60,815 nt of DNA from Flavobacteriales bacterium (GTDB taxonomy: Bacteria > Bacteroidota > Bacteroidia > Flavobacteriales_D > Sanyastnellaceae): the NCBI GenBank assembly GCA_029245065.1, contig JAQWQB010000020.1:1-60815 (forward strand). Reading direction: 5' to 3'. This document shows positions 14,011-20,891 of this stretch, in pieces. The position numbers and the translations under genes were made by a program. The notes under the pieces are model-generated. The model was not told where the DNA came from, ran no database searches, and was given only the letters and a program-made list of their open reading frames with translations. Position 1 is the stretch's first letter; every line of letters begins with the position of its first letter.

Positions 14011-15012
14011 TCATTCACCTTGTCCGAAACTATCATCCTCCAACGTTGAAAGGAATGCCACCAAATTGTCTCTTTCACTGAATGTTAACTCAAACGGTTT
14101 GATACGCGCATCTTGATTAGGATGTTGTTGTCCGCCTTGTTCATAGTGCGCAATGACTTCGTACAAGTTAGCGAGAGAACCATCATGCATGTAAGGAGCG
14201 GTTAATGAAACATTCCTCAATGAAGGCACTTTGAACTTTCCTTCATCTTCTGGCCTCAGTGTTAGGTTAGCTAATCCTTCGTCTTGAAATACTTCATACA
14301 GCCCATTGTTGACGATTTCGTAATTGGTGAAATTGAATCCATTGTGGCATGAAATACAATTCGCTCGTTCCGAAGTGAAGATGCGTAAGCCATCTAACTC
14401 TTCATCGGTTAGTTCAAACTCTTCGCCGCCAATAAAGGCATCCCATCTTGATTGATTGGAAACAAGGGTTCGCTCAAAATTGGCGATGGACCTTGTTAGT
14501 GTAAAAGCGGATAGCGGTTGATCATATGCCGCCTGACTCAAGGATTGATAGGTTTCGTCTCCCTCTAACTCGGCAACAATTTCCAAGATGTTCGAATCAA
14601 ATTCGTTGTGCTCCTGAATAGGTACTAATATTTGAGCTTCCAAGGTTGGAACGGACCCTTCGCGCATGAAATAAGGTTGGAAGGCCACGTTTCCCAACGA
14701 AGGTGAATTGCGCGTCCCGGGACGTTGTTCAACTCCAGGGTTCGCAGGCAGGTTCGTTGCGAACCCCAACGAGCGATCATGGCAACTTGCACAGCTAATG
14801 GTGTTATCTGACGACAATCGTTGATCGTTGAATAACAGTTTGCCCAAGGCAATACTTGATGCAGAGAATGGATTTAATTCAGGATAAGACACCGGTGGAA
14901 CGGGTTGATCGATGCCCTGTAATTGAGCATTCAGATAAGATGTAGAGGAGTCCTTACATCCCACCATGGCAGCAAGTAAGCAGGCGAATGCAAATCCTTG
15001 TCGCACATTCAT
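14011..15012 (-). CDS. di-haem cytochrome c peroxidase/MauG family lipoprotein, MbnH-like
   Basis: The 333-residue protein has a lipoprotein signal ending LLAAMVGC (Cys19) and two c-type haem motifs, CASCH at 74-78 and CISCH at 219-223. The order of motifs (GKLLFNDQRLSSDNTISCASCH, abbreviated here; KFKVPSLRNVSLTAPYMHDG near the end) is that of bacterial di-haem peroxidases and MauG/MbnH enzymes. Its ATG shares a base with the stop of the upstream MbnP-like gene (TAATG), and this pairing is what suggests MbnH. Known MbnH enzymes oxidise a tryptophan of their MbnP partner. An ordinary peroxide-reducing peroxidase is the alternative. It is probably lipid-anchored and faces the periplasm or surface. 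Confidence 0.85.
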   Translation of the reverse strand: MNVRQGFAFACLLAAMVGCKDSSTSYLNAQLQGIDQPVPPVSYPELNPFSASSIALGKLLFNDQRLSSDNTISCASCHDRSLGFATNLPANPGVEQRPGTRNSPSLGNVAFQPYFMREGSVPTLEAQILVPIQEHNEFDSNILEIVAELEGDETYQSLSQAAYDQPLSAFTLTRSIANFERTLVSNQSRWDAFIGGEEFELTDEELDGLRIFTSERANCISCHNGFNFTNYEIVNNGLYEVFQDEGLANLTLRPEDEGKFKVPSLRNVSLTAPYMHDGSLANLYEVIAHYEQGGQQHPNQDARIKPFELTFSERDNLVAFLSTLEDDSFGQGE

Positions 15013-15950
15013 TACTTCACCACCAATTTCGACGTAGTCACTCGTTGTCCTTGTACACAACGAATGAAATAAATCCCAGCAGACAGCTCATTCACAGACA
15101 CTACTGATGTCCCATTCAAAGCGCCATAGGTAGTAACCACTTTGCCCGTTAAATCCAACATTTCCAACTGAAACACGCCTTCCGTCGAAGGAACAACGGT
15201 TACGTTTGCAGTGGCTGGGTTTGGAAAAACAGTGAAAACAGTCTGAGTCAACTCCGTTGAACCGAGGTAAGCATCACTTGAAAAGACCAAGCTTCTCATG
15301 TTCAAAAGAATGTCTACGGCAGGCCCAGTGGTTCCGTGAAGAAAGAGGCCTTCCGACATATCAAGATTGGTGGTCAACTTGAGGTAATCAGCATCTAATG
15401 CAATGTTCGCAATTCCAGAAACTGCCTCCACATTGAGTTCATGGCTTTGATTCATGTAGTTTTCATCTCCCAAAGCATGAATTTCAATCAAGCCGTTCGC
15501 TTCAGCCATTCCTTCGAAGCAAAGAAACTTGTAGCCAGAAGTCCACCCCCAATGCATGGAAGGCGCTTGATTGGCAAGTGGGTGATTGTCATCATAAGAG
15601 GAAGGGTCAAGGTGATTCAGTTCTTCCAACACTCCAATTGAAAAAGAGATGTTTTCAAGCTGATTCACGCTCAAATCCCCCAGGTAGTATCCTTCTGGAG
15701 CTGACGCATCCACTAACAGGGTCAACTCACCTAGGTTAACTGTTTGTCCGCCATCGTGCGTGATCACGACATTGCTGATGTAATACTCTATTCTGCCGAT
15801 GGAAACCTCGTAACCATCGTCTGTCATGGTTGGTGTATTGGCGGTAAACTGGTCTTCTCCAAATAGATGGTTGATGTTTAAGTACACATCTGTTTGGGCC
15901 CACGTAGCAGTGGAAACCAAAAGAACCGCGAAAGAAAGTAACAAGCGCAT
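15012..15950 (-). CDS. MbnP-like protein with T9SS C-terminal sorting domain
   Basis: The 312-residue exported protein begins with a signal peptide (MRLLLSFAVLLVSTATWAQ) followed by an MbnP-like beta domain: LNINHLFG near 24-31, YEVSIGRIEYYISNVVI at 47-63 and the characteristic SMHWGWTSGYKFL at 131-143, with Trp134 and Trp136. In the methanobactin system MbnP binds copper after MbnH turns a Trp into kynurenine. The last 80 residues form a T9SS type A sorting domain (FTVFPNPATANVTV, then LSAGIYFIR). The start at 15950 fits the signal peptide; the frame extends 17 codons upstream. It is followed directly by the MbnH-like gene. Export to the cell surface and a metal-related role are inferences. 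Confidence 0.8.
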   Translation of the reverse strand: MRLLLSFAVLLVSTATWAQTDVYLNINHLFGEDQFTANTPTMTDDGYEVSIGRIEYYISNVVITHDGGQTVNLGELTLLVDASAPEGYYLGDLSVNQLENISFSIGVLEELNHLDPSSYDDNHPLANQAPSMHWGWTSGYKFLCFEGMAEANGLIEIHALGDENYMNQSHELNVEAVSGIANIALDADYLKLTTNLDMSEGLFLHGTTGPAVDILLNMRSLVFSSDAYLGSTELTQTVFTVFPNPATANVTVVPSTEGVFQLEMLDLTGKVVTTYGALNGTSVVSVNELSAGIYFIRCVQGQRVTTSKLVVK

Positions 15951-16082: not shown

Positions 16083-18068
16083 TTATTGCTTGATGAAACG
16101 CTGCGTAGCAGTAATTCCGTTAGCAGTAACCTGGATCAAGTAAACACCAGTTTCCCAGCTTTCAACGCTCATTTCAACTTGCGTTGCACGAGGCGTAATA
16201 TCGTCTACTAGTTTTCCTTGGATGCTGTATACTTCGATGCGATCGATGTTAGAATTTGCAGATACGTTCACTACAGATGTTGCCGGGTTAGGGAACAACT
16301 GCAATCCGATCAAATCAATTTCCTCAACACTTACGATCGTCTGAGTAATCTCAAGACAGAACTCACCTGTTGCAGGGTCAAGATCAAAGGCTGTGTAATC
16401 ATATCCATCTACCATGATGTAGTACTCAACACCATCTTCTGTTTGGAAATCCAAACCAGAGTAGTAGTTACCACCGTCAAAATCGATGTCTTCGTTACAT
16501 CCTGCTGGACCTAGGTCGTTGCAAGAACCTTCGTAAATAGCGATCTGTGTATCTCCTTCAAGGAAATCAGCTGTACCACCACAGTCACTTGTAGCGATGT
16601 TGTACAACTCACCGTCACCTGTGAAGGTGAACCACACTGTGTTTTCAATACTTGGAGCTTCACCGTTGTTATCATCGAAACAATCGTAACCAATGTCTAG
16701 ATCATCTTCAGCAGATGCTCCTTCGTTAGAGAAGGTCTCAGACATTTGTGTTTCGTTTACTGCTCCTCCAAATAGGTCATTCACGTCAATTGAGCTATCG
16801 CAAAGGTCATTTACTGGACCTCCACCTGCACATGGATTTTCTGGAAGTGCTAGTGCACAAGAAAGTCGAGATGCAGCGTATCCTTGAATTGAATCAATGT
16901 AAGCACGTCCCTTTTCAGCAGAAGCATCAGGGTTCGTCAAGAAACCGTTATCACTGTTTGGGTTTGTTTCTGGATCCCACCATTCCCATGGACCTGAATC
17001 AGCTGGCATTTCAGCTGGGCGGTTGAATGGGAAAAGTCCGTCATAACCATCGTTATTTAGGTTCGCAGCTTGAGACCATACATCATCCAAGTTGCTGTCT
17101 GCCCACACATCGTTAATTCCGAGTGTAGTGCATACTTGTTGAACAATGTAGCTTCCTTGTACTTCTACAACCGGAAGGTTCACTACAGGTACAATCACTG
17201 TTCCTTCTTCATAAGGAGCAAAAGGATCAGTTGGCACGTGGAATGACACCATTGGGATATCGTCAGCATCTAGCCAAGAGATATCTCCCATTGCACCACC
17301 TAGGTTCACACACGCCTGGAAATCAGAATCGTAACCTTCGTGGTTCACGTAACAAAGTGTATCACCATCGAAAGGGTTGATTCCGTATGATGTTCCAAAA
17401 ATATCTCCATTGATGCTTTCAATAACCATAGGGATTAGGTCCTCGGTAATGAACTTAGGAAGAAGGATATCTTCGTATTCATCAAGTGTAGCAGAAGCCA
17501 TAGAGATATACCCTCCTGTTCCTTGACCCCAGACGACGATACGAGATTCATCAATTCCGTAATCATTGTCACCGTCAATAGCGTCTGCTCTGAAGAATCT
17601 TGCAGCAGTACGTGCATCTTGAACACCACGGTAAGCAGCGTTGATCAACGTACTCACACGCTCTTCTTGCGTTTCAGCCAATGGGTTCCATCCTAGACGG
17701 TAATCGCAGCTAGCTACAACATAACCCATACGTGCCATACGAGAGCAAATCTCTACAGCAGCCGAATCTGTTCTCAAACCGCCTGTTCCACCATTTTCTG
17801 GGTGAGGAAGGAAGTTTCCTGTGTGAAAGAATAGGATAAGTGGACGTTCTGTTTCGGTATCCCCTTCAGGCTCGTAGATGTCCATCATTAAGTTCTCAGG
17901 AATTGCTTCACCAAAAATAGCGTAAGCAAGCACTGTTGCATTCGTCCCGTACTGTACCTCGTTGGTTACAGTTACATCATCAAATACCTCTTCGAGGTAT
18001 CGCTGGGCTGAAACCTGCGACACACATGCAAAGAGCATCATCATCGTTAAAGTATAAATCTTCTTCAT
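16083..18068 (-). CDS. secreted alpha/beta-hydrolase-fold protein with T9SS domain, nucleophile lost
   Basis: The 661-residue protein has a signal peptide (MKKIYTLTMMMLFACVSQVSA), an esterase-like region at about 45-300 and a C-terminal T9SS type A domain (LQLFPNPATSVVNV). The hydrolase part has LMMDIYEP, PLILFFHTGNF and RIVVWGQGTGGYISM. The last is the nucleophile elbow, but the expected G-x-S-x-G reads GQGTG (181-185) with Gly183 where Ser should be, so classical hydrolysis is unlikely. An Asp/Asn-rich region (425-580) resembles adhesion modules of flavobacterial surface proteins. It lies 24 bases downstream of a TonB-dependent receptor and shares its terminator, so it may help bind or present that receptor's ligand. 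The ligand is unknown. Confidence 0.8.
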   Translation of the reverse strand: MKKIYTLTMMMLFACVSQVSAQRYLEEVFDDVTVTNEVQYGTNATVLAYAIFGEAIPENLMMDIYEPEGDTETERPLILFFHTGNFLPHPENGGTGGLRTDSAAVEICSRMARMGYVVASCDYRLGWNPLAETQEERVSTLINAAYRGVQDARTAARFFRADAIDGDNDYGIDESRIVVWGQGTGGYISMASATLDEYEDILLPKFITEDLIPMVIESINGDIFGTSYGINPFDGDTLCYVNHEGYDSDFQACVNLGGAMGDISWLDADDIPMVSFHVPTDPFAPYEEGTVIVPVVNLPVVEVQGSYIVQQVCTTLGINDVWADSNLDDVWSQAANLNNDGYDGLFPFNRPAEMPADSGPWEWWDPETNPNSDNGFLTNPDASAEKGRAYIDSIQGYAASRLSCALALPENPCAGGGPVNDLCDSSIDVNDLFGGAVNETQMSETFSNEGASAEDDLDIGYDCFDDNNGEAPSIENTVWFTFTGDGELYNIATSDCGGTADFLEGDTQIAIYEGSCNDLGPAGCNEDIDFDGGNYYSGLDFQTEDGVEYYIMVDGYDYTAFDLDPATGEFCLEITQTIVSVEEIDLIGLQLFPNPATSVVNVSANSNIDRIEVYSIQGKLVDDITPRATQVEMSVESWETGVYLIQVTANGITATQRFIKQ

Positions 18069-18092: not shown

Positions 18093-20891
18093 TTAGTTCG
18101 TTTTTAGATCGTATAGGATAGAGAAGTAAGCTAGTCTTCCAACTCTAGGCCCACCGTACGTTTGAAATTGTTCGTTATTCAATAAGTTCGACGCTCCGAT
18201 TTTGAACGTAGTATTAATCGAAGTTACAATATAATTCACTTGAGCGTCTACCAGGTCATAGGTTGGAACCACTCCTGTAAACTGTGGAGACCCTTCAAAA
18301 AGGAAGCCTTGAATCCACTTGTAGTTAATTCCGAAGCCCCAAGTATTTTTCTTTCCCCAATTGGACTTGAGGTCTCTTGCAGAGATCCCGAGGTTGTATT
18401 TGTGCTCAGGTGTGTTAAATGCAGGAATGATCGGATCATCCTCTTCGGCCTCCACTAACTTATTCCATGAATAGTTACCAGAAAGTGAAACGTATTCATT
18501 CAGGTAGTAATTCATTCCAATGCTAAATCCTTGCGTAATCACTTCGTTCACCGAATTTGCTGAATACCTGTAAACCTGGATATCTGTTGGAAGTCCATTG
18601 GTTCCGAACTCCGCATCAATTCCAATGTTGAACCCAATGAAATGCTTGTAAACGCTGCGGTAGTAACCCGCGTCTACGTAAAGTCTGTTCCAAAGTGTTG
18701 TGCGGTATCCTACTTCGAAGGTTTGAACTTGTTCAGGACGAATTGGAGCAATGTCAAAATAGCGCACCGTGTCAGGGTCCTGCGTGTTTCTGTAGTCGCT
18801 AAAACTCTCCAATGTAATGAGGCTGTCTACCCCTTGCAGGTTACCACTTAGAATTGCTGGCCCCACATCGAGGTTCAAGTACTGATCTGCAAGTGTTGGG
18901 TTTCGCAATGCGCTTGACAGACTGAACCTCAGGTAGTCGTTTTCTCCGGGCTTTATGACGGCTGAAAATGCTGGTGACACAACGACATCAAAGTTTTGAT
19001 TCTTGTCAACACGCACCGTGGCGCTCAATATGATTTTATCTTCTTTTAATTTTTCTTCGACCCCTAAGTACCCCCCTACTTCGGAGTTTCTGATTTGAAT
19101 TCCCGCGGTGTCACTAAAGATGGTTCCATCTGAGTTTGGTGTATACAATCGGTAATTCGCCCCGACCCTAATGAGATCTACGAACGATGGTTCGAAGGTG
19201 TATTCTCCATGGATGTGATACAACGACGAACGATCGAAAAAACGTGTTCCTCCTTCCAGTTCATTGTTCTTTGCGCTGATGTACTGATTGAAAAGTGCTT
19301 CGAACTCTGGAGAGCCTGGCTCCAATCTCCCAAGTTCACTGGTTACCCCTGGAATATTTGCATTTCCATTGTTCGTCCAGTTCTCAACTGTTGAATGCCA
19401 GAACGTCAACGAATCATTGTAGAAATTCATCCAAGAATCCAATGAGTCAAAATCAAACTGAGCGCCGTCTGGTGTGAATTCCAATTGAGGAAATCCAAGT
19501 TCTTCCGTGAGATCGGCAATGGAATCATTCCAGTACTTGATGTACACCTGAGACCAGTCGTTGGCGTCTCTTGTTTCGTCAAGCATTCTCAATGCTGTAG
19601 CATACGGATCGTAGGAATTTCCAGCGTCTTCACTGGTCATGTAGGCACGAATGAAGAATTTATTCTCTTTTCGGTACTCAATTCTGTTTTGAAAGAATAC
19701 AATGTCGCGCAGACTAAAACGGTTGTCTCCTTGGTATACCGTTGTTCCGTTTCCGATGTTGAAAGCGTAAATCAGCTCTGGAGAATCGTATTTCTCTTCC
19801 GGCTTCGTGCGAAGGTGAAATGATGCAGATGCCTTGAGGTTCTTCGTGTTGTAGTCTACCAAGTCAGACTCTTTGTATCCTGTTCGGTAGAATGTTCCAA
19901 CGCCTGGATAGTTCCATGGGGCTGATGTCGAAAAGTCCATTGACGCAACGTATTCATCCCCATAGATATTCACGGCATCGTAACGTCCTGGGTTGTCAGC
20001 ATCTACTTGGCTATCGTAAACAGGGTCATAATTATCTGCCTCCCAATCATACGCCTGAAGCGCGTAGTAATTCAGTTTGTAGGCGAAAACATCGTCTCCT
20101 TTTTTATTAGGGATTGCCTCTGCCCAGCGAAATGCGTGTTCAAAAAGAGAACGCTCACCTACTTTCATGCTAAGTGAAAGCCCTTGATAGATGAAGGGGT
20201 TTTTCGTCTCCATATTGATAACACCGTTGAATGCTCCAGGTCCAAAATAGGCTGAACTGGCACCCGCAACGATATCGACGCTTTTCACGTCCAAATCACT
20301 TGCTCCAAGGAAGTTTCCTAGTGAAAAATTTAATCCCGGAGATTGGTTGTCCACCCCGTCAATCAACTGCAATGAACGAACGGGTGAAGTACTGTTAAAT
20401 CCTCTGGTATTAATGATTTTGAATCCCAAACTAGCTGAGGTCATGTCCACCCCTTTTAAGTTTCCAAGGCCTTCGTAAAAGTTTCCACTTGGTGCTTCTT
20501 TAATGGCTAAGGCATCCATACTTTCAACTGTCAAAGGAGCTTGTTTCTGCTTTTCAGAGATTCGCTCTCCCACTACCTCGGCTGCATCAATCATGATTTG
20601 TCCGGCTGAAAGCTTCACATCTACTCGCTCAGAAGCATCGCTCACCACTACTTCTTTGGTGTCGTACCCGATAAAACTGATTTGAAGTGTTACAGGAACA
20701 GATGGCACTTGAAGTTTGAACTCCCCGTCAAAGTCTGTTGTAACTCCAGATGTGGTCCCTTTTATGATCACATTCGCACTGAAAACAGGCTCCCCTGTTA
20801 TAGCGTCTCGCACTTTCCCTCTAAGCGTTTCTTGCGAAAACAGGGACGTACAAAGCAAGCAAGAAAATACAATCGTAAAAAATCTGAGCAT
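18093..20891 (-). CDS. TonB-dependent receptor with carboxypeptidase-regulatory-like N-domain
   Basis: The 932-residue outer-membrane receptor starts with a signal peptide (MLRFFTIVFSCLLCTSLFSQ), then a CarboxypepD_reg-like domain (LRGKVRDAITGEPVFSANV to about residue 95), a plug domain (about 110-230, with VRSLQLIDGVDNQSPG and FGPGAFNGVINMETKNP) and a 22-strand-type barrel ending RVGRLAYFSILYDLKTN. Such receptors import siderophores, oligosaccharides or other large ligands with energy from TonB/ExbBD. No SusD partner gene lies next to it; instead a secreted hydrolase-fold protein follows. The ligand cannot be named from sequence. Confidence 0.93.
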   Translation of the reverse strand: MLRFFTIVFSCLLCTSLFSQETLRGKVRDAITGEPVFSANVIIKGTTSGVTTDFDGEFKLQVPSVPVTLQISFIGYDTKEVVVSDASERVDVKLSAGQIMIDAAEVVGERISEKQKQAPLTVESMDALAIKEAPSGNFYEGLGNLKGVDMTSASLGFKIINTRGFNSTSPVRSLQLIDGVDNQSPGLNFSLGNFLGASDLDVKSVDIVAGASSAYFGPGAFNGVINMETKNPFIYQGLSLSMKVGERSLFEHAFRWAEAIPNKKGDDVFAYKLNYYALQAYDWEADNYDPVYDSQVDADNPGRYDAVNIYGDEYVASMDFSTSAPWNYPGVGTFYRTGYKESDLVDYNTKNLKASASFHLRTKPEEKYDSPELIYAFNIGNGTTVYQGDNRFSLRDIVFFQNRIEYRKENKFFIRAYMTSEDAGNSYDPYATALRMLDETRDANDWSQVYIKYWNDSIADLTEELGFPQLEFTPDGAQFDFDSLDSWMNFYNDSLTFWHSTVENWTNNGNANIPGVTSELGRLEPGSPEFEALFNQYISAKNNELEGGTRFFDRSSLYHIHGEYTFEPSFVDLIRVGANYRLYTPNSDGTIFSDTAGIQIRNSEVGGYLGVEEKLKEDKIILSATVRVDKNQNFDVVVSPAFSAVIKPGENDYLRFSLSSALRNPTLADQYLNLDVGPAILSGNLQGVDSLITLESFSDYRNTQDPDTVRYFDIAPIRPEQVQTFEVGYRTTLWNRLYVDAGYYRSVYKHFIGFNIGIDAEFGTNGLPTDIQVYRYSANSVNEVITQGFSIGMNYYLNEYVSLSGNYSWNKLVEAEEDDPIIPAFNTPEHKYNLGISARDLKSNWGKKNTWGFGINYKWIQGFLFEGSPQFTGVVPTYDLVDAQVNYIVTSINTTFKIGASNLLNNEQFQTYGGPRVGRLAYFSILYDLKTN

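Follow-up and report, generated by a model that had tools for sequence, protein, structure and literature searches.

A pair of overlapping genes in a Flavobacteriales bacterium encodes an MbnP-family protein that ends in a type IX secretion (T9SS) sorting domain and, directly after it, an MbnH-like dihaem lipoprotein. We read this pair as a Bacteroidota version of MbnP/MbnH. Sequence and fold establish the identity of both proteins, their conserved residues, the tail and the operon. By the window we mean the whole stretch of DNA that was analysed, 60,815 nucleotides in length.

The two genes and their products

The MbnP-family gene lies at 15012..15950 on the reverse strand, with its ATG at 15950, and encodes 311 amino acids plus stop. 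The MbnH-like gene, of the kind we call Arg-type, follows on the same strand at 14011..15012 (333 amino acids plus stop). The junction reads TAATG (15010..15014, reverse strand), with one base common to the mbnP stop and the mbnH start, an overlap already reported in the initial annotation of this DNA.

The first product opens with a type I signal peptide (residues 1–18, ending TWA before Gln; 15897..15950, reverse strand), which we judged by eye from the translation and which has no lipobox. Gln19 is near-invariant, at least 90% across 77 aligned proteins. The MbnP domain, matched by PF20243 at 88.7 bits (cut-off 27), spans residues 20–200 (15351..15893, reverse strand), and a T9SS type A sorting domain runs from residue 241 to the end (15015..15230, reverse strand), scoring 44.9 bits with PF18962 (cut-off 27) and 49.7 bits with TIGR04183 (cut-off 23). 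TIGR04052, the MbnP equivalog model with its four-Cys motif, gave 40.5 bits against a cut-off of 140, which fits with the absence of the four cysteines of the methanobactin type from the window protein in an eight-row alignment. Structures of both proteins were predicted with AlphaFold2 from alignments of the window protein and its relatives. The MbnP model (mean pLDDT 92.6, pTM 0.72) matches Methylosinus MbnP (7l6g_D) over residues 18–228, with Z 17.1 and an rmsd of 2.6 over 200 aligned residues. Ranks 2–25 of the fold search concern the tail region only; there residues 237–311 resemble T9SS cargo tails of known structure (8qb1, Z 11.8; 8glk, Z 11.6), so that two profiles and a structural match now stand behind the sorting domain that had been proposed for this protein.

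The second product carries a CCP_MauG domain. Among NCBIfam models TIGR04039, the MbnH family, fits the protein best, with 246.5 bits where its cut-off asks for 362.85; the MauG model TIGR03791 gave 181.2 bits. A phmmer search of the PDB put MbnH (6e1c) first at 1.7e-43, and the predicted structure (mean pLDDT 91.2, pTM 0.85) has the same protein as its best fold match (Z 34.0, rmsd 2.2, 300 residues), ahead of peroxidases at Z 30.4 and lower and of MauG at 28.4. Solved MbnP and MbnH are thus the closest folds of the two predictions. The description of a lipoprotein with two CxxCH motifs holds too. The lipobox cysteine is Cys19 (14956..14958, reverse strand), followed by K-D-S-S-T, a partial surface-lipoprotein signal by the rule of PMC5080379, and the haem-binding motifs are CASCH at residues 74–78 (14779..14793) and CISCH at residues 219–223 (14344..14358), both on the reverse strand. 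Cys74, Cys77 and His78, and likewise Cys219, Cys222 and His223, occur in all 70 aligned enzymes, namely that of the window and 69 relatives, taken as the first enzyme after each MbnP.

Other residues place the enzyme more closely. Tyr290 (14143..14145, reverse strand), present in 69 of the 70, sits at the axial haem ligand position, where it corresponds to Tyr294 of MauG and replaces the axial Met of bacterial cytochrome c peroxidase; a Parabacteroides peroxidase has Met there. Pro131 and Glu137 (both 70/70) and Gln127 (67/70) align with residues that the accessible part of PMC6405878 places in the distal pocket of MauG and BthA. Arg117 (14662..14664, reverse strand) occupies the inter-haem position, aligned with the Trp of MauG and of the Parabacteroides peroxidase. 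The same comparison with proteobacterial MbnH is less sure than that with MauG, because in three references the Trp falls in the Arg117 column in one alignment and one residue earlier in another.

Relatives of the pair

The T9SS-tailed MbnP with its dihaem partner is also found in many relatives of the source bacterium. PF20243 matches in 111 of the 114 genomes of the window's family. A scan of GTDB species genomes returned 391 pattern matches. In 361 of them the DNA codes for a relative of the tailed query, and we fetched the best 80 of these 361. These best 80 come from Flavobacteriales, Saprospiraceae, Chitinophagales and others, among them the isolates Phaeocystidibacter luteus, Cryomorpha ignava and Aureispira sp. 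Seventy-six were analysed; the other four, with MQWGW, fell to a motif filter and were inspected later. An open reading frame bearing CxxCH lies directly downstream of MbnP in 71 of the 76 loci. Of the five without one, three have a record that runs no more than 640 bases past the MbnP gene, and two have a longer one.

All 80 fetched loci carry M-x-W-G-W (76 MHWGW, 4 MQWGW), and both the MbnP and the T9SS tail profiles match (E up to 0.001) in all 77 proteins of the 76 loci plus the window, though the counts for tail, MHWGW and His158 are partly made so by construction, because the alignment used to rank the best 80 of 361 has tails in it, one of the two search patterns is MHWGW itself and the other holds His158. 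A less biased set, picked within the window's family by PF20243 and frame length, has MHWGW in 20 of 20 tailed-length proteins (the window's included), and PF18962 matches nine of the ten of these that sit in our alignment A1. In a tree of 48 MbnP domains the 25 tailed rows form one group with support 92 (24 of them with 95); the window lies inside it and the untailed rows outside.

Some loci are curious in their own right. Tandem MbnP genes, one with MFWTWN and one with MHWGWNP and both untailed, precede two dihaem enzymes at L066:2157-3724 and L067:5192-6816. An open frame of 633 amino acids at L055:4613-6514 includes an MbnP domain with MHWGW. MbnP/dihaem operons also turn up in bins labelled Poseidoniaceae archaeon (L083), Rhodospirillaceae (L085) and Euryarchaeota (L103), which are probably misbinned Bacteroidota contigs.

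Route to the surface and the two enzyme types

The sequence of events we favour has, taken whole, somewhat better than even odds. MbnP would be made with its signal peptide and cross the inner membrane, after which the T9SS would take it by its C-terminal tail to the cell surface, or release it. MbnH, as an outer-membrane lipoprotein, would use peroxide to reach a high-valent dihaem state and in that state would turn Trp134 of MbnP into kynurenine by oxidation. Together with His158 and probably Met132, the site thus modified would hold one Cu(I) outside the cell.

Surface display of the window MbnP is predicted from its tail, and we think it likely. The T9SS gene we searched for, that of the translocon protein SprA, is present in the source genome as two fragments, each on a contig of its own. 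The partner enzyme is harder to place. The accessible text of PMC5080379 gives the surface-lipoprotein signal of Capnocytophaga as C-X-K-(D/E)2-X, and this exact motif does not follow the lipid cysteine of the window MbnH, where the sequence is C-K-D-S-S-T. We compared 59 dihaem lipoproteins of tailed loci (the window's included) with 47 other putative lipoproteins from the same loci, using a loose lipobox rule that admits false lipoproteins into both sets: Lys at +3 occurs in 31/59 against 5/47, an acid at +4 in 42/59 against 10/47, an acid at +5 in 33/59 against 8/47, and the exact motif, which is rarer, in 16/59 against 3/47. Among the untailed MbnPs of the family, 28 of 45 have a lipobox, several with CKKDEE-like starts; this set of 45 includes two tailed proteins that the tail rule overlooked. 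The same rule picks out one of the 76 tailed MbnPs and two of 19 in a second tailed set, none convincingly, for in the second set two rows are not MbnPs and both matches lie inside hydrophobic segments. Since lipoboxes occur mostly in untailed MbnPs, we infer that the lipid anchor and the T9SS tail are alternative routes to the surface. Surface display looks like a common theme, because the dihaem partners often carry a surface signal and the untailed MbnPs are mostly lipoproteins.

The order of events could nevertheless be different. MbnH on the inner leaflet might oxidise folded MbnP in the periplasm, with the T9SS then exporting the finished copper or apo protein. The T9SS moves folded proteins, which counts for this order, as does the incomplete surface signal of the window MbnH. 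Methanotroph precedents point both ways in the accessible part of PMC3912023: CorB is mainly periplasmic with CorA at the surface, whereas SACCP and MopE are both found at the surface. In the window's clade many of the partner enzymes do carry surface-signal residues, and we regard periplasmic modification as the most serious competitor, though a tentative one.

The inter-haem arginine raises a second question, namely whether the window enzyme is the one that acts. Under a wider criterion (an open frame of at least 250 amino acids with two CxxCH motifs near the MbnP gene), 72 of the 76 loci have one or two MbnH-like genes and four have none. Fifty of the 76 operons combine one Trp-type enzyme with one Trp-less enzyme (48 Arg, 1 Thr, 1 Ser), 15 have a Trp-less enzyme alone (10 of these with more than about 1.5 kb of sequence beyond) and seven have a Trp-type enzyme alone. 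Arg is the residue in 62 of the 65 Trp-less enzymes. The gene order is MbnP, Arg, Trp in 38 loci and MbnP, Trp, Arg in 10; the window operon has the Arg type only. Elsewhere in the same genome, contig C49 encodes a second, untailed MbnP with two enzymes, one having Met at the inter-haem and Phe at the axial place and the other having Trp, and contig C89 (L211:3561-4694) has a lone Trp-type MbnH-like gene on a long branch. PF20243 finds no match on contig C89, and its enzyme could serve the window MbnP in trans.

It is conceivable, then, that the Arg-type MbnH does not oxidise Trp at all and is a structural or electron-donating partner, with a Trp-type paralogue doing the chemistry, in trans if it lies outside the operon (C89 or C49 here). 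The 50 mixed operons speak for this, as do the Trp-type genes elsewhere in the source genome and the description of MauG as needing its inter-haem Trp, given in the accessible part of PMC6405878. The same text reports that BthA, with Ser at the inter-haem place, still forms bis-Fe(IV), so that an inter-haem Arg is compatible with the chemistry. All 122 genes, of either type, encode Pro131 and Glu137, and the 15 operons with only a Trp-less enzyme, like the seven with only the Trp type, also count against a division of labour, which we consider unlikely.

The dihaem tree answers another doubt. Had the enzyme been an ordinary peroxidase, it might have grouped with cytochrome c peroxidases; it falls instead inside a clade of 23 Trp-less, MbnP-linked Bacteroidota rows (starred in our tree), and it carries the axial Tyr of MauG and MbnH. 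The Trp types form another group of 25 rows, one of them with Ala. The Bacteroidota clade does not join proteobacterial MbnH in the tree, and a topology holding the two together is not rejected (AU p 0.096). One that forces the window protein into a group with two bacterial peroxidases is weakly rejected (AU p 0.039). An ordinary peroxidase is ruled out by the axial Tyr and the gene pairing; the AU test adds little weight.

A candidate copper site and its setting

The initial annotation pointed to an HWGW segment, which we find at residues 133–136 within MHWGW, residues 132–136 (15543..15557, reverse strand). Met132 is a candidate copper ligand, Trp134 the candidate kynurenine, and Trp136 the second Trp of the WxW. 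We aligned eight MbnPs, from the window, Methylocystis parvus, Ideonella, Pseudoalteromonas, Deinococcus and three Bacteroidota. The Methylocystis parvus reference (L153) sits on a plasmid in a true methanobactin operon with mbnA, mbnB and mbnC, and the window protein is 21% identical to it. Invariant in all eight are the start Met, Tyr57, Gly68, Gly106, Asn112, Pro124, Met132, Trp134, Trp136, Gly139, Phe142 and His158, so that the Trp and the candidate ligands, whose conservation had been proposed as a check, do align with MbnP of a methanobactin operon. A 2021 PNAS paper on MbnP reportedly describes a copper site made of one His, one Met, solvent and a kynurenine derived from the first Trp of the WxW. 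We take Met132 and His158 (15477..15479, reverse strand; invariant in three alignments) as the putative ligands, because they are the only Met, besides the start, and the only His common to all eight. By analogy with the Methylosinus proteins, conversion of Trp134 to kynurenine by the window MbnH seems fairly probable, and we give the same credence to Cu(I) binding by the MbnP so modified.

Other histidines could contribute. His65 and His205 occur in 77 of 77 tailed-clade proteins, and His205 also reaches at least 90% in a set that mixes tailed with untailed proteins. His133 occurs in 77 of 77 as well, but is Gln in the four loci first dropped; these four, with MQWGW, weaken the case for it as an essential ligand. 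Might MbnP then bind copper, or another metal, through His and Met alone, with MbnH as a surface peroxidase? The retention of His65, His205 and His133 in the tailed clade would allow such a site. Against it, Trp134 and Trp136 are present in every tailed protein inspected, the dihaem pairing is nearly fixed and the axial residue is Tyr, not Met; we find this reading quite improbable. A relative at L007:1405-2148 retains the first Trp, as MFW, and has lost the second Trp of the WxW. The idea that an ordinary cytochrome c peroxidase has come to lie by accident next to a secreted protein with no connection to it draws on the large size of the dihaem superfamily and on good matches to peroxidase structures (Z 30.4 and lower), and is ruled out by the adjacency conserved in 71 of 76 loci, with the MbnP fold, the axial Tyr and the tree position against it too.

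We then looked to the neighbours. A copper transport gene (CusA/CusB, CopA or an HMA motif) occurs in the fetched flanks of 12 of the 76 tailed loci and a small HYC_CC_PP-like gene in 31, against 1 (an HMA motif) and 0 in 40 control regions; the copper and HYC profiles took their seeds from the tailed loci themselves, HMA is a plain motif, and the controls come from the window's family only while the named loci come from several. Within the family, 20 long-frame loci (19 of them tailed) have one copper gene and three HYC_CC_PP genes, and the other 20 loci have none of either. Representatives were confirmed as CusA/CzcA family (763.8 bits), copper P-type ATPase (614.8 bits) and HYC_CC_PP (3/3), and a Deinococcus MbnP/MbnH pair adjoins copC and copD. 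Four profiles and two motifs found no copper or HYC_CC_PP gene in the 60.8 kb window. The HYC_CC_PP family (NF047658) consists of small Cys-rich proteins, seen near tailed operons at L091:7313-7729, L124:7057-7563 and L143:7473-7937, and they might be a copper-related partner. Judging by kinship and by the neighbours in some relatives, a role in copper tolerance or handling seems likelier than one in uptake, because the named transporters are of the efflux type. Upstream of the pair and on its strand lie a BD-FAE-like hydrolase with a T9SS tail (16083-18068) and a TonB-dependent receptor (18093-20891). Neither belongs to the unit: the receptor has a relative in 1 of the 76 named loci and in 0 of the 20 family long-frame loci, and the hydrolase in 0 of those 96 and in 1 of the 40 control regions.

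How does the pair compare with known systems? It resembles MbnP/MbnH of Methylosinus and Methylocystis in both folds, in the positions of the WxW, Met and His, in gene order and overlap, and in the enzyme's axial Tyr and distal Gln, Pro and Glu. It differs in having a T9SS tail, HWGW and an inter-haem Arg, in lacking the four-Cys motif, and in coming from a genome without an MbnB-family gene. The initial annotation had noted that methanobactin genes are missing; for one key family this extends genome-wide, PF05114 (MbnB family) giving 0 matches in the whole source genome and positives in 2 of 14 control genomes by the same search. Methylocystis MbnB and MbnC proteins used as queries found no match either; that search had no positive control, so the absence of MbnB rests on PF05114. 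Two dihaem MbnH genes, in Methylocystis parvus (L153:5884-7044) and Ideonella dechloratans (L159:2246-3517), are mis-annotated as 'methanobactin export MATE transporter MbnM'; both carry CxxCH motifs and align with MbnH.

Finding a pair away from methanobactin genes is no novelty. Such pairs have been published since 2013 as GenProp0940 (PMC3621798), a conserved pair without methanobactin genes like ours, and the accessible part of that paper makes no mention of a T9SS-tailed clade, a partner with a lipoprotein signal or an Arg/Trp enzyme pair. Surface kynurenine copper proteins are described in the accessible parts of PMC3912023 and PMC3423442, and dihaem partners in the former. As described there, MopE/SACCP and CorA/CorB of methanotrophs are likewise surface copper(I) proteins with kynurenine from Trp and a co-transcribed dihaem protein; they differ in a copper site of two His and kynurenine, and no T9SS tail is named. 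MbnP is reported to have no marked sequence similarity to MopE/CorA (PMC3621798, accessible part), and these are absent among the fold matches listed. BthA of Burkholderia shares with the window enzyme a MauG-like axial Tyr and a replaced inter-haem Trp, and differs in having Ser in place of Arg and, in the text seen of PMC6405878, no mention of an MbnP-like partner. In the open-access literature, subscription papers aside, we found no report of MbnP with type IX secretion, of Bacteroidota MbnH with copper or of a kynurenine-based copper site in Bacteroidota, so the T9SS-tailed MbnP is apparently an undescribed variant.

Against the reading of the pair as a Bacteroidota MbnP/MbnH we count the inter-haem Arg, the incomplete lipoprotein signal, the window without a copper gene found, the single copper gene among the family's 20 long-frame loci and none among its other 20, TIGR04052 and TIGR04039 scores below their cut-offs, the four absent cysteines and a tree in which the enzymes stay apart from proteobacterial MbnH. 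A wider picture, which we offer as speculative, is that many Bacteroidota possess an extracellular kynurenine copper site, in which MbnP delivered by the T9SS is finished by surface dihaem lipoproteins, Trp and Arg paralogues acting together in most lineages and singly elsewhere, as in the window. The Trp/Arg enzyme pair is a natural test of whether long-range Trp oxidation needs an inter-haem Trp, a point that BthA raised. If true, our reading would put a protein modification driven by peroxide at the cell surface or close to it, and would add to the kynurenine-based copper sites of methanotrophs an exported form that occurs across several groups of Bacteroidota.
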